In this document: one piece after another, positions 141 through 23,027 of the stretch
How positions within the stretch are numbered: position 1 is the stretch's first letter
Layout of the letters: every line of letters starts with the position of its first letter
Source of the DNA: an uncultured Clostridia bacterium
GTDB lineage: Bacteria; Bacillota; Clostridia; Christensenellales; UBA1242
Length of the DNA: 35,289 bases
Direction of reading: 5' to 3'
NCBI GenBank assembly: GCA_944376825.1
Contig: CALWDY010000006.1
Location: forward strand, 1-35,289
Translations under genes and position numbers: made by a program
Notes under the pieces: generated by a model
Databases searched by the model: none
What the model was told of the DNA's origin: nothing
Seen by the model: the letters and a program-made list of their open reading frames with translations, nothing else

Positions 141-367
141 CGACTTTTTTAACTTTTTTTAAACTTTTTTCATCTTTTTTCGTTTTTCTTTGTACACACC
201 GTATAGTTGTACTGGTTTTTGTTATTGTTAAGCACAACAGAGTACCCTTTTTATTGTAATTACACCACATTTATAATATTATATTAATTAAGTTTTACTA
301 TAAAAACATTTAAATAATACTGTTGCAAGTTAAAATCAATTGTGATATTATAAACCTAGGAGATATT

Positions 368-1762
368 ATGAAAAGCACAGTTAATAAAGGTATTCTTTTT
401 TATATTTTACTTTTATGTTCCATTGTTGTTGGTATTGCATGCGTAATTATGGCAATTTTGATATTTTCGCCTGGAACAGAAATTTTTGGTATAAGTTACT
501 ATGGGAAAAAAGTTGATTCTAGCGTTACAAAAATAAGTGCAGAAGAAAACTCAGCCTATATTGATACACTTGTTGAAAATAATTTAATCAACTCATTTAA
601 CATTAAAACCGACTATATAAACATTAATGTTGTTATGAAAGATGTAAACAGGGTTCAAATTGAACTAGATTCCAAAACATCTGGAATTATTAAAAGCGGA
701 AATCAAAATAATTTTATTTGGAACTATAATTATGATGAAGCAAATAAAAGTTTTAATTTTAGTGTAACCGGACCTGATTGCTGGTTCTACTTTTCAAAAA
801 ATGCCACAATAAAATTAGCTTTACCTCTTGATTTTAATAGAACCGACATAGATTTAAATTTATACACAGAAAGTGGAAACATTAATATAGGCACTGAAAA
901 AAATAATAATTTCTCATTTTCTTCTTTAAAAATTGAAACAAAAGAGTCTTCTAACATAAATTTAGGCAACAATGTTTCGTTTACCAGTTTAGTTGATATC
1001 AACTCGCCAAGTGGAACAATAGACGTAAATTCTGTTGTGAATGTAAATAATTTAAACATAACATCAAACTCATCAAAAATTGTTGTTGGAGACGTTACAG
1101 CAAACGAGTTTAAACTTAAAACAGATTCATCAATTGCAAAGATTGGTGCATTGTATGGCAATTTAACATATGATGCAAAAAAAGGTGTTCTTGATGTTGA
1201 AAAGATAACCGGCAAACTTTCATGCAGTGAAGATTTAATTTCTAATATTTTTGTAGATGAAATTTTAGGAGAAGTTTTGTTGCCAAATGCAAAATCTTCT
1301 AGCATTACAATAAACACACTTCATTCTAGATGTAGAATTTCAACAATATCAGGAAATGTAACAATTAACAATGCTTTAAATGCTGTTGATATTGAAACAG
1401 ATAGTGGAGAAATATATGTAATTTTGAACACACCAGAAAATGTTTCAAAGCCAACAAATTCGGCACTTTCTCACATAAAATCAAATTCCGGAAATATTAC
1501 CACAAAATTTAACAATATCAAGTACAACAACACAATTGAAACAACATCTGGAACAATCAACTGTTCATATAGAAATGGTTTGGAATTTACATTAACCTAT
1601 AATTGTGAAACAAACAAACCAACGCTCTCTTCTGGAATTACAACAAATGAAATTAAAAACTCGGCATCAATTGAAATTGGCTCACCAAATTCTTATGACA
1701 CAATAACCATAAACAACAAAAATGGCCAAACAAGCATTGATGATCAATATGTTTTAAAATAA
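368..1762 (+). CDS. DUF4097-like beta-strand repeat membrane-anchored protein
   Basis: A 464-residue protein with one N-terminal membrane segment (about residues 8-35) followed by a long extracytoplasmic region of short beta-strand repeats of the type SGNINIGTE, SGTIDVNS and SGEIYVIL. This pattern is typical of the DUF4097 / putative adhesin right-handed beta-helix family, whose function is not established. The start at 368 is preferred over an upstream in-frame TTG at 323 because an AGGAGAT ribosome binding site lies just before it and the hydrophobic segment then sits at the N-terminus. It is rich in Asn, Ser, Thr and Ile. It is convergent with the metal exporter gene and shares a hairpin terminator with it. 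The family assignment rests on repeat style, not on a catalytic motif. Confidence 0.7.
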   Translation: MKSTVNKGILFYILLLCSIVVGIACVIMAILIFSPGTEIFGISYYGKKVDSSVTKISAEENSAYIDTLVENNLINSFNIKTDYININVVMKDVNRVQIELDSKTSGIIKSGNQNNFIWNYNYDEANKSFNFSVTGPDCWFYFSKNATIKLALPLDFNRTDIDLNLYTESGNINIGTEKNNNFSFSSLKIETKESSNINLGNNVSFTSLVDINSPSGTIDVNSVVNVNNLNITSNSSKIVVGDVTANEFKLKTDSSIAKIGALYGNLTYDAKKGVLDVEKITGKLSCSEDLISNIFVDEILGEVLLPNAKSSSITINTLHSRCRISTISGNVTINNALNAVDIETDSGEIYVILNTPENVSKPTNSALSHIKSNSGNITTKFNNIKYNNTIETTSGTINCSYRNGLEFTLTYNCETNKPTLSSGITTNEIKNSASIEIGSPNSYDTITINNKNGQTSIDDQYVLK

Positions 1763-1827: not shown

Positions 1828-2781
1828 TCACACAAATAAATTGCATAAAATGCCCACTAAACTACCAATTAAAAACAACGATAAAACAATTATAACATTC
1901 ATAAGCATATGTTTTCTGTTTTTTGCAAAAAGAATAAAAATACCTATTCCGCTACCTGCGCAAAGTCCAGCAATCATTGCACCAAATGTTATGCCACCTG
2001 CCATGTAAAATTCAACCAAAAACACAGATGATGCGCAAGAGGGTATAAGCCCAACTAAAGATGCAATAAAAGGTGATATAAACTTATTTGTAGTAAATAT
2101 TTTAGACAAATTTTCAACACCTGCGTAGTTTACAATAAGACCTATTATAAATGTTGCAACAAATAAAAATGCAGTTATTTGCAAAGTGTGAACAAGGGCA
2201 TCTAAAAAAATATTATCTACACAAGCATGATGTTCATGTTTTGTTTCTTTGTCGTGATGTTCGCATTTTTCCCCTTGCTCTTCATTATGACAGTGAATTA
2301 CATGAGCATGAGAACATGATGTTAACTGGCAATCATGATTGTGAATTTTGCTAAAAGCATCCACTTCTATTTTTTGTGGTTTATTAAATAACTTTAAAAT
2401 TATATCAAACAAATATCCAAAAAACACAGCAACAACAAGTTTAATTGCAATCATTATAAGCATTGGAACAATGAAGTCGGGATTTGATATCATTATTGGA
2501 ATTGCCTCATCACTTGTTGCAAGCATAACCGCAATTAAGGTTCCTGCTGTTATTGCTTTCTTTGAATATAAGTCTGCCATAACCACAGAAAAACCGCATT
2601 GTGGAATGCACCCTGTTATTCCACCAATAAGCGGTCCATATTTTTTTGTTTTATTCATAAGTTTTGCATATCGATTATTGTTATTGTGCCCAAGATAACT
2701 AACCAACAAATAAACTAAATACAAAATTGGCAAAATTTTTATTGTGTCTAAAAACGCATCTATTATAATATCCCAAATCAC
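1828..2781 (-). CDS. ArsP_2-family putative manganese/heavy-metal exporter
   Basis: A 317-residue polytopic membrane protein matching the 10-TM ArsP_2 family (often annotated 'putative manganese transporter'). It consists of two pseudo-symmetric halves, each with the family-type motif: GGITGCIPQCGFS near residues 53-65 and GLIPSCASSVFL in the second half. The halves are joined by a hydrophilic loop (about 147-187) holding 11 His and 5 Cys, a likely metal-binding segment. The start is GTG at 2781, sharing a 4-base GTGA overlap with the stop of the upstream solenoid gene, so translation is probably coupled. The family role is metal efflux across the cytoplasmic membrane. The substrate (Mn, Zn or other) cannot be read from the sequence. 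No yybP-ykoY riboswitch fits in the short leader of the operon. Confidence 0.8.
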   Translation of the reverse strand: MIWDIIIDAFLDTIKILPILYLVYLLVSYLGHNNNNRYAKLMNKTKKYGPLIGGITGCIPQCGFSVVMADLYSKKAITAGTLIAVMLATSDEAIPIMISNPDFIVPMLIMIAIKLVVAVFFGYLFDIILKLFNKPQKIEVDAFSKIHNHDCQLTSCSHAHVIHCHNEEQGEKCEHHDKETKHEHHACVDNIFLDALVHTLQITAFLFVATFIIGLIVNYAGVENLSKIFTTNKFISPFIASLVGLIPSCASSVFLVEFYMAGGITFGAMIAGLCAGSGIGIFILFAKNRKHMLMNVIIVLSLFLIGSLVGILCNLFV

Positions 2782-3572
2782 TTTTCTATTTCTCCGCTTA
2801 AATTGTAATTATTTTGATTTCGTTTTTTTTCACTTGTTTGAGATTTTGATTGTTTTTTTTGTTTGTTTAAATACACAATAATTGCATTGCCATTCTTTTG
2901 CCTTATTCTTCCACCTATTTTTTGCCCTACAATTGAATTGCCCATTATTTCATTAACAACGCCACCATTAATTGTGCCTATTTCACAATTATCGCAAACC
3001 TCATTTATTTCTCCTGAATTTATCGTTCCAACCTTTGCTGAGTTTAACATATAATTAATTGTTCCATGGTTAAAGGTTACCACTTTTGCACCTTCCAAAA
3101 GCCCCTCTATTTTTGCGTTGTTTACAGTTGAAATTTTTGAACATCCCCTTATGTAAAAAATTTGCGCATTATTTATTGTATCAATTTTTGCTTTGTCATC
3201 TACAAATCTTACTATTCCGTTGTTTATAGTTCCAATTCTTGAATTTTTACACAAATAAAATATATTACAGTTGTTTATTGTATCAATTTTAACATTTCCA
3301 GCAATAGTGTTTATTGTTCCTTCTTCAATAATTCCAATTTTAGCGTTTTGTGTTGCCATGTATATTTCTCCACTGTGCATAACATTAATTTTTGAATTCC
3401 CAGAAATTAAAGTATATGTTGAATCTGTGGTTTCTAGAACAACAGCATTACCAGACAGCGAAACCCTTTTACATCCAATTATTATGTGTGCACCATCAGT
3501 TAAATTTAAATTATCTTCGCTTTCATGAATTTGTGGCTCTATAATTTTTTTCTTGAACTTGAAAATTTTCAT
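2778..3572 (-). CDS. cytoplasmic 17-residue-repeat beta-solenoid protein
   Basis: 264 residues, no signal peptide and no membrane segment. Residues 42-228 consist of eleven consecutive 17-residue units without any insertion, of the form N-x-K-I-G-T-I-N-N-G-x-I-x-x-I-x-x, for example NSRIGTINNGIVRFVDD and SAKVGTINSGEINEVCD. Alternating beta-branched residues, Asn and Gly indicate a right-handed beta-solenoid (compare polymer-forming bactofilin-type or pentapeptide folds, although the period differs). The N-terminus is Lys-rich and the C-terminal tail is Lys/Gln/Asn-rich and probably disordered. It has an AAGGAG ribosome binding site and its own promoter at 3593-3621, and its stop overlaps the exporter start. 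I do not recognise a named family. A scaffold, polymer or partner of the exporter is possible but is inference. Confidence 0.75.
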   Translation of the reverse strand: MKIFKFKKKIIEPQIHESEDNLNLTDGAHIIIGCKRVSLSGNAVVLETTDSTYTLISGNSKINVMHSGEIYMATQNAKIGIIEEGTINTIAGNVKIDTINNCNIFYLCKNSRIGTINNGIVRFVDDKAKIDTINNAQIFYIRGCSKISTVNNAKIEGLLEGAKVVTFNHGTINYMLNSAKVGTINSGEINEVCDNCEIGTINGGVVNEIMGNSIVGQKIGGRIRQKNGNAIIVYLNKQKKQSKSQTSEKKRNQNNYNLSGEIEK

Positions 3573-3623: not shown

Positions 3624-4874
3624 TTAACTAGCAAATATTTTTGCATCTACTTTCATGTTAATTTTTACAAATGACAAAAAATCTGTTTTATCGTTTAAAG
3701 ATTCTAAAAACTCGTTAAATTTTTTGTGATTATTGCTATACAGAATTTTATAAATTCCAACCACATCAGTTTTTTCTTTACGCAACTTATTTAAAGTTAA
3801 TGCCACTTCTTTTTTTATTGTATCGTTGATTTTATTATTTAATTCTTCGGTGATAACAATATCCTTTGGACTTTTCATTTGCTTTGTTTGTTGAATTATT
3901 TCAACGGGATTTAACTTTAAAGACAATTCAAAAGTTATTATTGGTTTATTGTTTCTAAAAGCAACATTTGGCTTAATGATGTTTTGTTGAACTTCAAAAG
4001 ATAAACTTGCATTGTTTAAGCCTTGCTCATTTACACCTGTAATTGTTAAAAGTTGTTGCAAATTATTTTCAACTATCCAATTTATTCCTTTCATTTCATC
4101 AACACTTAAAATGTATTTTAATTTACCATCAACAAACACAGCATGTTCTCTTTGCAATGATATCACATTGTTTGTTTTTGTTTGTTGTGATTGATTAGAT
4201 TCATTTTCGTTGCTTGCCCCATCCGTTTCTGGACTAGAATTAATGCCTGTGCTGGCATCTTTGTCCAATTTTAAATATACCAAAGTTGATGTTTTTGTTG
4301 CAGAAAAGTAACCTTTTAAAAAGTTGTTCAAACTTGTATCTTTTGTGTAATTAACATTGAATTCATTTTGAATAATTTCTCTTAGTTTATACATTGATGA
4401 TTGTTCCAATTTGCTGGCTTGACTTAGCACATCTTTTGCACTATCCCTGCTCATTATTAAAGAAACAGAATTTGGTAATTTGGTTGTTATTGTAAGAGTG
4501 TTCAAAACAGATGCAATATCCTCAGTTGCAAAACTTTGAGAAACGATTACATATCCCACATGCCCCATTTTTAATCTCCTACCTATTTGAGATTCAATTG
4601 AACTTATAGCATTTGCAACAGTAGAATTTTTGCCCGACACAACTTTTGTGTTTTCTCCCATATTATCCTTTGAGATATCCGAAAGAGTTAAAACAGAAAA
4701 TTCAACTTCGTCTTCAACCTTATCAATGCCAATTGCTGTTATAATTGCCCCCCTAAAACTAAGTGATGGCATGGTTATTGCAGTTGGCAAAAAAATTATC
4801 ATAATAATAAAAAAATATGATAAAGCAAAACTTTTTTCAAATTTTTTTAGATATTTTTTTATATTTTTTATCAT
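3624..4874 (-). CDS. gerAC: spore germination receptor C subunit, Ger(x)C family, lacking a lipobox
   Basis: A 416-residue GerAC-like subunit of a germinant receptor. The N-terminus has a hydrophobic segment (about residues 17-33) followed by FRGAIITAIGIDK, which matches the conserved strand at the start of Ger(x)C proteins. The C-terminal half carries the family-type region around HAVFVDGKLKYILSVDE. Normal GerAC proteins are lipoproteins with a Cys after the signal peptide; here no Cys follows the hydrophobic segment, so it is probably a signal-anchored or cleaved protein. The start at 4874 is chosen because AAGGAG lies 8 bases upstream; the in-frame TTG at 4892 would place that site inside the gene. 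It overlaps the end of gerAB by 38 bases. A Ser/Asn/Gln-rich linker occurs around residues 210-230. Confidence 0.85.
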   Translation of the reverse strand: MIKNIKKYLKKFEKSFALSYFFIIMIIFLPTAITMPSLSFRGAIITAIGIDKVEDEVEFSVLTLSDISKDNMGENTKVVSGKNSTVANAISSIESQIGRRLKMGHVGYVIVSQSFATEDIASVLNTLTITTKLPNSVSLIMSRDSAKDVLSQASKLEQSSMYKLREIIQNEFNVNYTKDTSLNNFLKGYFSATKTSTLVYLKLDKDASTGINSSPETDGASNENESNQSQQTKTNNVISLQREHAVFVDGKLKYILSVDEMKGINWIVENNLQQLLTITGVNEQGLNNASLSFEVQQNIIKPNVAFRNNKPIITFELSLKLNPVEIIQQTKQMKSPKDIVITEELNNKINDTIKKEVALTLNKLRKEKTDVVGIYKILYSNNHKKFNEFLESLNDKTDFLSFVKINMKVDAKIFAS

Positions 4875-5952
4875 ATTTTTTCTCCTTGTCAAAAATTAAC
4901 AACAAAATGTAAATAAAAGGAATAATAATCCACAATAAAACACCAAAATATTTAAAATATAATAAAACAAATCCTGTTATTTTTTGTATATTATAAAATA
5001 CAAAATATGTTAAAAAAATTAAAACACCATTTGTTGCAATTAAAAAATGATATATATTGTTATATCCAAAAATTTTGTTATAACAAATTTTTAAACAGTT
5101 CATATACAAAGAACCTTGAAAGTAAATTACAAACAAATATACAAGTATTGAAACAATATCTATATTACCCGAATTGCCTATATTTCTATTATATTCTGTT
5201 ACATCTGCTATGGCTGTTTTATGCAAAAATGCAGTAACTCTAAAAAGTCTAAAATAAACAAAATATAATATCATAAGTAAAAATGTTATAAATATCACAT
5301 ATGAAAATATTTTTCTTTTCATGTTTTTTTCAATTTTTATTTTGTCTGCCAAAATTGCAACAAATAAAAAATCTGAAAACCAAAAGTTTAAATCGAAGCA
5401 AGCATTTATAATGTTATTTGCATCCTCAACAAATAAAGAGCCTATTTCTCCAAAACCGAGTGATACTTCAGACAAAAACAAACAGATTATAAAACCTATT
5501 AAAATAAACACAAATCCAAATTCGCACGTGCGTGCACAACTTTTTAATCCGCCATAACAAAGTGCAGTAATAACAGGTAAATAAGTTAATAGAAAAACAA
5601 CCAAACTGCAATCTTCATCAACCACATCTTGCATATACGAAAGTCCTTCGTTTATTAACATGCATAGTTTAAATGTAAAAAATGTAAAAATAAAAAGATA
5701 TAATATTTTTGCCGTAATTTTACCCAAAAATTTTTCTATTATTTCATATAAAGAACAATCTGGATATTTTTGCTTTATTTTTAAAAACAAAAAAAGCATT
5801 AAAAAATCTGCAACAAACATCACTATTGCAACAACTAAGCCTGAACTACTACTTTTTTCAAAAAGCAATGATGGCAATGCTATCAGTTTTAATGCCAACA
5901 ACGAAATTGCACAAAAGCACGCCGTCTGTCTAACAGTTATTTGTTCTTTCAT
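4837..5952 (-). CDS. gerAB: spore germination permease subunit B (GerAB family, APC superfamily)
   Basis: A 371-residue polytopic membrane protein with about ten hydrophobic segments and the GerAB N-terminal pattern (ITVRQTACFCAISLLALKL), the length expected of endospore germination permeases. In the family this subunit sits in the spore inner membrane and is thought to bind the germinant. Its start overlaps the end of gerAA by four bases (ATGA) and its end overlaps gerAC, as in a tightly coupled gerA operon. Very Phe/Ile/Leu-rich, with a Lys-rich C-terminal tail. Confidence 0.88.
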   Translation of the reverse strand: MKEQITVRQTACFCAISLLALKLIALPSLLFEKSSSSGLVVAIVMFVADFLMLFLFLKIKQKYPDCSLYEIIEKFLGKITAKILYLFIFTFFTFKLCMLINEGLSYMQDVVDEDCSLVVFLLTYLPVITALCYGGLKSCARTCEFGFVFILIGFIICLFLSEVSLGFGEIGSLFVEDANNIINACFDLNFWFSDFLFVAILADKIKIEKNMKRKIFSYVIFITFLLMILYFVYFRLFRVTAFLHKTAIADVTEYNRNIGNSGNIDIVSILVYLFVIYFQGSLYMNCLKICYNKIFGYNNIYHFLIATNGVLIFLTYFVFYNIQKITGFVLLYFKYFGVLLWIIIPFIYILLLIFDKEKKYDKKYKKISKKI

Positions 5953-7370
5953 TTATCAACATCCAACCCCCTATGCTCATCAATATTTTTTATAACTTTT
6001 GGTCTTGTTTTCATTTTTGATATTGGTTTTCTTGTAAGCCCATCTTTTAAATCATTTTTAATTCTAGGTGCATAAGGTGCTAAATTTGGAGTGTTAAATT
6101 CATTCATAGTGTTTAAATAATTTACAAAATACACCATGGCTCCAACAATACCAAAAAGCCCCAGTGTTCCTCCAATTATAAGAAAAACAAATCTAAGTAT
6201 GGTTAATTGAGGTGCTTGGTTTGGTACTGTATACATTGATATTAAACTTAGAGCAATTACTATAATGCCCGGAGATGAAATTAATCCAGCTTGAACACCA
6301 GTGTCACCTAGCACAAGCGCACCGACAATACTTGTTGCCAACCCTAAATATCTAGGCAATCTTAAACTGACCTCATATAACATTTGGAATAATATTAAAA
6401 TAAACAAAAGTTCTATAAAAGGAGTGAACGGCAAATTTTGTGTTGTTGCGTTTATTGTTAAAATGTATTTTAAAGGAACAACTTTATAATGATACAACCT
6501 AAAACTCAAATACACCCCCGGAACAACTGTGGCCATAATAATCCCTAGTGCCCTTATAAATCTAATAAAAGATGTGTAATGTGCGTTTGTGTAGTAGTCA
6601 TTGCTGTTTTGCAAATCTTCCATAATCATGAATGGAATAGTAATCACAATAGGAGAACCATCAACGGCAATTGCAACTCTTCCTTCAAGAATTTTTGCAG
6701 TTACAATGTCAGGCTTTTCTGTCATGCCAAATTGTTCAAAAAGCGAATTGGGTCTATTTGAAAGATAATTAATAAGATAGTGCGAATCTAAAATTGCATC
6801 TGTATTTATTTTTTTTATTTTTTTTTCCACATCTTTTATCAATTTTTTATCAGCCAAATTATCCAAATAAAAAATAGAAATTTGAGTATGAGTTAATTCT
6901 CCCACAAAAAAATTTTTAATTATTAAATGTTTGGTTGGCAATTGTTTTCTAATTAAAGCAATAGTGGTTTTTACACTTTCTGTAAAACCTTCTCTTGGTC
7001 CCTGAATTGTTGGAGATGTTGGTGGCTCCGCTGGTTGTCTTGTTGGAAAAAATTCAACATCTAAACAAAGAGCATCACTTTCACCCTCAACAAACAAAAG
7101 GACTTTATTTCTTATTACATTTTTAACAAAATCTTTTTCTTTTATTTTTTCTATTTCAATAACTTTAAGGACTTTGTTTTTTAAATTATCTAATGTAACC
7201 TCTCCCTTGTAATCTATTAATGGAGATATTATTGACTGCACCAAAAGCATTTTATCTATTGTGCTCTTTAAGAAAATTAGAGATATTTTTTTATTTGAAA
7301 TAATAAAATCCCTAACCAAAACGTCAGGGTTATTGTTAATCTGCATTTTAATTTTTTCAACAATTTCCAT
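5949..7370 (-). CDS. gerAA: spore germination receptor A subunit (GerAA family)
   Basis: 473 residues. An N-terminal hydrophilic domain carries the conserved segment PTIQGPREGFTE and further on GRVAIAVDGSPIVITIP, both hallmarks of GerAA/SpoVAF-type proteins. This is followed by a C-terminal membrane domain with about five hydrophobic helices and a basic tail (KPISKMKTRPK). Family role: the A subunit of the germinant receptor, a nutrient-gated ion channel in the spore inner membrane. First gene of gerAA-gerAB-gerAC. The ribosome binding site AAGGGG is embedded in the loop edge of a hairpin directly before the start (see 7371-7405). Length is normal for the family. Confidence 0.92.
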   Translation of the reverse strand: MEIVEKIKMQINNNPDVLVRDFIISNKKISLIFLKSTIDKMLLVQSIISPLIDYKGEVTLDNLKNKVLKVIEIEKIKEKDFVKNVIRNKVLLFVEGESDALCLDVEFFPTRQPAEPPTSPTIQGPREGFTESVKTTIALIRKQLPTKHLIIKNFFVGELTHTQISIFYLDNLADKKLIKDVEKKIKKINTDAILDSHYLINYLSNRPNSLFEQFGMTEKPDIVTAKILEGRVAIAVDGSPIVITIPFMIMEDLQNSNDYYTNAHYTSFIRFIRALGIIMATVVPGVYLSFRLYHYKVVPLKYILTINATTQNLPFTPFIELLFILILFQMLYEVSLRLPRYLGLATSIVGALVLGDTGVQAGLISSPGIIVIALSLISMYTVPNQAPQLTILRFVFLIIGGTLGLFGIVGAMVYFVNYLNTMNEFNTPNLAPYAPRIKNDLKDGLTRKPISKMKTRPKVIKNIDEHRGLDVDK

Positions 7371-19750: not shown

Positions 19751-20137
19751 ATGAGTATTTCAAGAAAACTTTTGGAAATAAAATCTCTTTCCCAAACCAT
19801 TTGCAACATAACAAAAAACGAAACTACCAACACACAAATAAAAGTGTTGTACTTTATTGATGAGTATACAAGTGTATCACCTCAAATTTTAATTTCAAAA
19901 CTAGGAATAGTAAAATCCAACTTGGCACTTATAACAAAAAAAATGATAAAAGAAAATTTAATAGTTTCAAAAAAAAGTTTAAGCGATAAAAGAGCAATAT
20001 TTTATTCCATAACCCCTAAGGGGAAAAAAATGCTTGATACATACACTGCCGAACTCGACAAAATTTTTCACGACCAAGATAATGAAATTGAATATAACCT
20101 GGATATAATTTTAAAATACCTTAATAAAAAAGTATAA
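19751..20137 (+). CDS. MarR-like winged-helix transcriptional regulator
   Basis: 128 residues with a MarR layout: N-terminal helix, winged helix-turn-helix around SPQILISKLGIVKSNLALITKKMIKENLI (residues about 38-66), the wing KSLSDKRAIFYSITPKGKKML that is diagnostic of MarR/PadR-type proteins, and a C-terminal dimerisation helix. It probably binds a palindrome and represses or activates itself or neighbours; the ligand is unknown. No ribosome binding site: the ATG follows the -10 box by six bases. Next to the yab genes downstream and divergent from recD2. Confidence 0.8.
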   Translation: MSISRKLLEIKSLSQTICNITKNETTNTQIKVLYFIDEYTSVSPQILISKLGIVKSNLALITKKMIKENLIVSKKSLSDKRAIFYSITPKGKKMLDTYTAELDKIFHDQDNEIEYNLDIILKYLNKKV

Positions 20138-22487: not shown

Positions 22488-23027
22488 TTAAATATTTGAT
22501 ATCCTTTTATCCAAATCAGAAATAACATTTTTGTAGATTTCAAACATTTCATTTGGCTTTTTATTGCTGTCTTTTTTTAACCATTCGTAAAAAATTCTAT
22601 ATATTCCGCCTGCAACAAACGAAACATAATAATCTGTATATTCTTTGCTCCAACTCTTTGATTCTTGGTGCCTTGCCAAAACAATTTCCCTAACTATATC
22701 AACAATAGCAGAAGAAATGCTTCCCAGCAAACCGTTTTTGTATGCAATAATAAACACCTCTGAATTGTCAAATATAAATTGAAAACTAGACAAAACAATG
22801 TTGCCTTTATCCATATTCTCTTGTAACTTTTTTCTATACAACGATATTAAATTGTCAAAATATTCGCACAGAATCATTTTTTTGTTTTCAAAATATCTAT
22901 AAACAGTTCGCCTGGACACCCCTGCCTTGTTTGCCACCATACTCATTGTAACTTTTTCATATGGCACATTTTTCATAAGCAAAAACAGGGATTGCATAAC
23001 ATACGCTTTTACTTCATCTTTTTCCAT
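22488..23027 (-). CDS. TetR/AcrR family transcriptional regulator
   Basis: 179 residues. N-terminal TetR DNA-binding domain: helix-turn-helix around VTMSMVANKAGVSRRTVYRYFENKKMIL (residues about 26-53). The C-terminal ligand/dimer domain is of the TetR type with VSFVAGGIYRIFYEWLKK, reminiscent of the TetR_C_8/DhaS-like group common in Firmicutes. The ATG is preceded by GGAGATGA. A perfect 12-bp palindrome (23051-23062) lies 24 bases upstream, and a divergent degV starts 208 bases away. Confidence 0.85.
   Translation of the reverse strand: MEKDEVKAYVMQSLFLLMKNVPYEKVTMSMVANKAGVSRRTVYRYFENKKMILCEYFDNLISLYRKKLQENMDKGNIVLSSFQFIFDNSEVFIIAYKNGLLGSISSAIVDIVREIVLARHQESKSWSKEYTDYYVSFVAGGIYRIFYEWLKKDSNKKPNEMFEIYKNVISDLDKRISNI

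Follow-up and report, generated by a model that had tools for sequence, protein, structure and literature searches.

A predicted beta-solenoid protein family with 17 residues per coil, often encoded next to an exporter-type gene, in a lineage of uncultured Clostridia

The repeat protein X and its predicted fold

The gene considered here, which we call X, is located on a 35,289-nucleotide stretch of DNA (contig CALWDY010000006.1, assembly GCA_944376825.1; hereafter the window) from an uncultured Clostridia bacterium of the UBA1242 lineage, in whose 1.05-Mb genome it is present as a single copy. X is followed directly by a gene for an exporter-type protein, the GTG start codon of which overlaps the stop codon of X by 4 bases (GTGA), and is preceded by a set of spore-germination genes (Table 1). 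A first-pass annotation of the window, made from the sequence alone, described residues 42–228 of X as eleven in-register units of 17 residues with no insertion or deletion, and a period test confirmed this. In an autocorrelation of residues 24–237 (BLOSUM62) the score at lag 17 was 1.12, which is 12 standard deviations above the mean for shuffled sequences (−0.82, standard deviation 0.16), and over lags of 2 to 59 that score was not reached by any of 2000 shuffles. The highest-scoring lags were 34 (1.22), 17 (1.12) and 51 (0.79), the next best being −0.05, and when periods of 12–23 were compared the mean unit-to-unit score was positive for 17 alone. The consensus originally proposed, N-x-K-I-G-T-I-N-N-G-x-I, describes the nine middle units (residues 59–211) well and is weak in the first and last, whose mean BLOSUM scores against the other ten units are 2.0 and 3.9, compared with 14.6–27.1 for the remaining units. 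Within the nine middle coils, columns 4, 7, 12 and 15 are hydrophobic, and the least variable columns are 10 (Gly, 82%), 6 (Thr, 70%), 12 (Ile, 86%) and 8 (Asn, 51%), so placed that Thr, Asn and Gly form ladders along the repeats. As first described, X contains no signal peptide; its highest mean hydropathy over 19 residues is 1.17, and no stretch resembling a membrane helix is present either.

The suggestion that each repeat forms one turn of a beta-solenoid was borne out by structure prediction, in which AlphaFold2 models of two distant members gave mean predicted local distance difference test (pLDDT) scores of 85.8 and 84.1. The predicted solenoid spans the weakly conserved first and last units and extends past both. 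Right-handed beta-helices superpose on the model at about 3 Å. A Foldseek search with the model returned no match at an expectation value (E) of 0.001 or better in the PDB or in a viral library. As a prediction, a right-handed beta-solenoid is well supported and secure for X. In this respect the model resembles the passengers of AIDA/Ag43-type autotransporters such as TibA (4q1q), which are exported outer-membrane adhesins; X, however, has no signal peptide and is only 9% identical to TibA. A beta-helical antifreeze protein from an Antarctic bacterium (3p4g), described as Ca-dependent and hyperactive on ice, has no sequence relation to X.

A lineage-restricted family of constant length

Searches of Pfam, NCBIfam, PHROG and the PDB sequences gave no significant match to X, in keeping with the earlier view that it belongs to no recognized family. 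The one Pfam hit to the X of the window, which would link it to tubulin-binding cofactor C, was rejected (PF07986, 20.3 bits against a cut-off of 24.8, over 34 residues and in one of 18 relatives), and matches to mercuric reductase (E 0.09) and mS38 (E 0.22) in the PDB, to PHROG entries (E about 0.02 in two of four proteins) and to Cas7b in PADLOC (E 0.016) were taken to be at chance level. Among 5.8 billion proteins searched with the single sequence, two relatives were recovered, and a profile search, which scored the 7992 candidates sharing most words, gave ten matches, all of them X or fragments of X as judged by sequence and none with a Pfam domain. Full-length homologues were found in 28 of 148 genomes of relatives. 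When whole genomes were searched with the profile, X turned up in 107 of the 309 examined from one bacterial family, distributed over seven of its 42 genera; the raw count was 108, from which G043 was removed because the protein matched there (E 1e-8), 621 residues long, has a hydrophobic N-terminus and shows no repeats to the eye. A weak match in G018 (E 0.0095) was dropped as well, being absent from the family profile search. In a class-wide sample of 391 genomes, six matched the profile and all six belong to this same family, and the 19 named matching records are metagenome-assembled genomes (MAGs) of uncultured Clostridia, Clostridiales and Christensenella, three of whose titles mention an animal gut sample. 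X is therefore a lineage-restricted family, carried by about a third of the lineage.

Variation in repeat number across homologues, a point raised by the first-pass annotation, was looked for and not found. The stretch from P13 to Y234 is free of gaps in 109 of 111 aligned sequences (104 distinct proteins from 105 loci together with seven database proteins, which in part duplicate the loci: P0006, for example, is L236 with a longer start). The two exceptions are L258, truncated by the end of its contig, and L246, in which nine residues are missing. The latter (from G608) is the only full-length X with a deletion, which falls inside one coil and amounts to about half a turn; it may reflect misassembly, or else offer a natural test of the solenoid. 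Across an 18-member alignment, identity to the X of the window drops to 36%. Positions that hold the same residue in 95% or more of the sequences include K9, P13, H16, G27, H29, C34, E47, Y106, F123, R142 and D194, and of these H16, H29, C34 and E47 all sit at the N-terminal end. X is a real, well-defined and new protein family.

The exporter-type gene and the neighbourhood of X

The gene downstream of X encodes a clear member of the NF037962 'arsenic efflux protein'/ArsP_2 (PF11449) family, to which X itself does not belong. On the basis of these family names, a histidine-rich loop and, in some relatives, genes of the ZIP or Fur family close by, we predict that it is a metal exporter; the loop and the neighbours together suggest a divalent metal rather than arsenic. 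Among the matches listed in a literature search on ArsP_2/ArsP permeases and manganese, no title concerned this exporter family. A metal riboswitch was considered and rejected, as Rfam at gathering thresholds gave only tRNAs in the window and in the loci of eight relatives. In two genera that have no X, a Fur-family regulator lies divergent from the exporter (L095 and L102; assigned by Pfam for the L095 copy). On the other side of the exporter in the window, and convergent with it, is a DUF4097 'toastrack' protein (PF13349, 50.2 bits; positions 323–1762, plus strand) with a weak likeness to LiaG, and in G012, a genome of the same genus as the window, a similar gene of 464 residues also ends beside the exporter.

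The first-pass annotation had coupled X to the exporter, and the pair is indeed kept in 80 of 105 loci and in three of seven genera (designated g1, the genus of the window, g11 and g34), while the other four (g13, g26, g31 and g36) keep X unpaired. A same-strand exporter follows X directly in 79 loci (15/15 in g1, 5/5 in g11 and 59/64 in g34), and L225 makes the 80th by coordinates: in G631 the match to X runs to 56295 and that to the exporter begins at 56557 of the same contig, both on one strand, and the only open reading frame (ORF) called in between is a short one in the opposite direction. Of the four g34 loci left unpaired, two lie at contig ends (L214, L258) and two have no detected exporter (L206 in G551, L215 in G595). 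In g1 the two ORFs are separated by −4 to 1 bases and in g11 by −1 to 3; in g34 the spacing ranges from −1 to 238, with a median of 16. The exporter is present in 98 of 107 genomes with X compared with 146 of 202 without it, by a hand count uncorrected for relatedness, so that most genomes of the family that have no X also carry an exporter of this type. In G012, which has no X, the exporter stands behind a gerC-like gene with a gap of 175 bases; in G007, another g1 genome that lacks X, it stands behind an unrelated repeat protein; and in 10 of 17 X-less g34 loci its neighbour is a divergent gene of the kinds found at X loci (judged by eye). The simplest reading is that the exporter persists while X, an accessory gene, is acquired or lost ahead of it. 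The link between X and the exporter is strong and well supported, although not universal.

What lies upstream of X differs between the three genera. In g34, divergent MarR-like or ABC-transporter genes are found at many X loci (one MarR by Pfam, the others by eye), and in four of five g11 loci a ZIP-family gene is divergent from X (by Pfam for one), L021 having a different gene. This ZIP gene, the exporter pairing and the near-invariance of H16 and H29 (110/111) and of C34 and E47 (111/111), a candidate binding site, together raise the idea that X is a metal sensor. We regard this as unlikely, since the same residues are equally conserved in genera without the pairing and X matches no metal-binding family.

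In g1, by contrast, a same-strand gene precedes X at a distance of 45–60 bases in all 15 loci, and in the window this gene is gerC, preceded in turn by gerA and gerB; a terminator-like site between gerC and X was looked for and none was found. X might accordingly belong to a gerABC operon as its fourth gene and serve spore germination. Such a role is very improbable, given that gerA occurs in 76 of 87 relatives tested, genera without X included, that G049 has gerA and X on separate contigs, that the gerC-like gene and exporter of G012 occur without X, and that almost every g11 and g34 locus has a divergently oriented gene in front of X. The gerA-gerB-gerC set looks complete in the 1.05-Mb genome, and from the distribution of gerA spore germination appears to be kept in these small genomes. 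Elsewhere in the window, MarR-like (19751–20137, plus strand) and TetR-like (22488–23027, minus strand) regulators, recognized by eye, sit among short ORFs between a RecD2 helicase (Pfam) and leucyl-tRNA synthetase.

Table 1. Features of the X locus, with positions in the window
Feature	Position	Strand	Basis
Gene X	2778..3572	-	264 residues, ATG start, AAGGAG five bases 5' of the ATG; ORF read
Eleven 17-residue units, residues 42-228 of X	2889..3449	-	Period test and unit scores
Predicted beta-solenoid, residues ~14-234 of X, ~12 to 13 coils	2871..3533	-	AlphaFold2 strands and confidence; P13-Y234 free of indels in relatives
N-terminal hydrophobic-basic peptide, residues 1-12 of X (MKIFKFKKKIIE), candidate membrane-targeting sequence	3537..3572	-	Pattern counts and bactofilin consensus
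Tail, residues 235-264 of X, predicted to be disordered from 241	2781..2870	-	pLDDT <50 for 241-264; no Q-motif (see text) in the X of the window
Exporter-type gene downstream of X, 317 residues	1828..2781	-	NF037962, 279 bits (cut-off 100); ArsP_2, 82.6 bits (cut-off 32.5)
Histidine-rich loop of the exporter, residues ~147-187	2221..2343	-	ORF translation; His counts in relatives
gerC, gerB and gerA spore-germination genes, upstream of X, 51 bases away	3624..7370	-	Pfam

Likeness to bactofilins and a working hypothesis

The known proteins that X most brings to mind are the bactofilins (PF04519, DUF583), such as BacA of Caulobacter and BacM and BacP of Myxococcus. The first-pass annotation had supposed that X differs from these in its period, and this proved not to be so, as the beta-helical core of BacM is built of repeats of 16–18 residues (PMC4372379), a range that takes in the 17 residues of X. 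Like the bactofilins, X lacks a signal peptide and would be cytoplasmic. Its short hydrophobic-basic N-terminus resembles theirs, and its predicted disordered tail brings to mind their flexible tails, which can recruit a client encoded by a neighbouring gene. It differs from them in having about 12–13 coils (about 220 residues) in place of six (profile length 98), in that every coil is exactly 17 residues, and in its restriction to one bacterial family. None of 18 X members matched PF04519 at E 10, and comparison of the X profile with 28 clostridial bactofilins gave a probability of 1.9% over 22 columns, with no positive control run. No solved bactofilin was among the 50 structure matches listed for the model, a listing that does not exclude a bactofilin fold. 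Given the lack of a profile match and a coil number about twice as great, we do not file X as a bactofilin. In the 36 genomes tested from the X-bearing family, a search at E 0.01 detected no bactofilin; among other genomes of the order 13 of 24 have at least a weak match, two of them over the cut-off.

The N-terminus of X in the window, MKIFKFKKK, and those of relatives (MFGKKKEK, MWFKRKEK, MSFFNLFKEK) are short, hydrophobic and basic, and call to mind MFSKKKK, given as the membrane-targeting consensus of bactofilins in PMC12448750. A pattern of F or W at positions 2–5 with at least two K or R at positions 3–10 was found in 89 of 104 X sequences compared with 56 of 386 other ORFs at the same loci, counts that relatedness among the sequences inflates. 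Only 11 of 28 clostridial bactofilins fit it, with start sites that are poorly called, so the comparison leans on the published consensus. At the other end of the protein, the tails of the family are rich in E and K and range from 16 to 120 residues. The Q-motif, Q[LIMV][KE][LIMF], is present in 68 of 110 tails (mean 2.7 and maximum 9 in shuffles), distributed as 56/63 in g34, 6/8 in g26, 1/7 in g13 and 5/7 among database proteins; it is absent in g11 (0/5), g31 (0/1) and g36 (0/5). All five g11 tails contain QxS[LIM]L instead. Both QTSLL-like and Q[LIMV][KE][LIMF] motifs lie near the C-terminus of g34, g26 and g11 homologues, for example L199, L211 and L251. They resemble the sliding-clamp motifs QLxLF and QLxLxL, as given in PMC4564189, and a stricter hexamer-like clamp pattern is found in 26 of 110 tails; we offer this as a lead only, as nothing else links X to replication.

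Our current working hypothesis, to which we assign a probability of roughly 0.4, is that X works on the membrane side in the manner of a bactofilin, as a scaffold or adaptor for the product of the adjacent downstream gene, the predicted metal exporter. According to this hypothesis X would fold into a right-handed beta-solenoid rod of fixed length, the hydrophobic-basic N-terminal peptide would, by its likeness to that of bactofilins, hold it on the cytoplasmic face of the membrane, and the disordered tail, to judge from the Q-motif in g34 and g26 and another motif in g11, may recruit a partner. X might then support the exporter by clustering or regulating it, and may assemble end to end as bactofilins do. 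There is a precedent of a kind in BacP, the disordered tail of which binds PadC, encoded immediately downstream of bacNOP (PMC5703909). In four genera X is kept apart from the exporter gene, which makes it more likely to be a scaffold of general use on the membrane side, brought to the exporter, than an obligate subunit of it.

A number of observations weigh against this hypothesis. No sequence similarity of X to bactofilins was found. In g1, the genus of the window itself, the N-terminal pattern is present in only 7 of 14 X proteins and the Q-motif in none of 14, and a looser N-terminal pattern, found in 101 of 111 X proteins, is also found in 115 of 286 controls. The loop region of the exporter has a median of 11 His in proteins with and without X alike (67 and 34 distinct sequences), and the idea that X stands in for the loop was rejected on account of these equal medians. 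Just 36 of the 59 g34 pairs lie within 20 bases of each other, the widest gap being 238; nine of the 107 genomes with X have no exporter (these are MAGs, some perhaps incomplete); and no pair occurs in any of the 21 loci of g13, g26, g31 and g36, one of which (L256) ends at a contig edge. Several of these points would suit a structural protein that works at the membrane independently of the exporter, its place in front of that gene reflecting shared expression or chance descent. X is kept unpaired in all 21 of those loci, the exporter persists in the majority of genomes that have no X, and, as gene order is inherited, the 80 paired loci may represent as few as three events. We consider independence of this sort doubtful, if less so than a sensor function, because the pairing is seen in three genera that differ in the genes upstream and because the two ORFs abut or overlap in all 20 loci of g1 and g11.

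A bolder version of the scaffold hypothesis, which we think improbable, is that X represents a new class of bacterial scaffold, a self-assembling solenoid of constant length, tethered to the membrane, that has taken over from bactofilins, none of which was detected in this lineage, and that gathers metal exporters in membrane arrays while the Q-motif of the disordered tail, similar to those by which other proteins bind the DNA sliding clamp, ties them to a second cellular machine. Bactofilins are not known to organize transporters, and the pairing described here offers a direct test of whether beta-helical scaffolds do so. X also names a candidate partner for the little-studied ArsP_2-type exporters. 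Lastly, it adds a protein family of unusually exact geometry, at 17 residues per coil, and as coil number stays constant while identity falls to about 36%, X provides a clean natural model for how the length of a solenoid is set.
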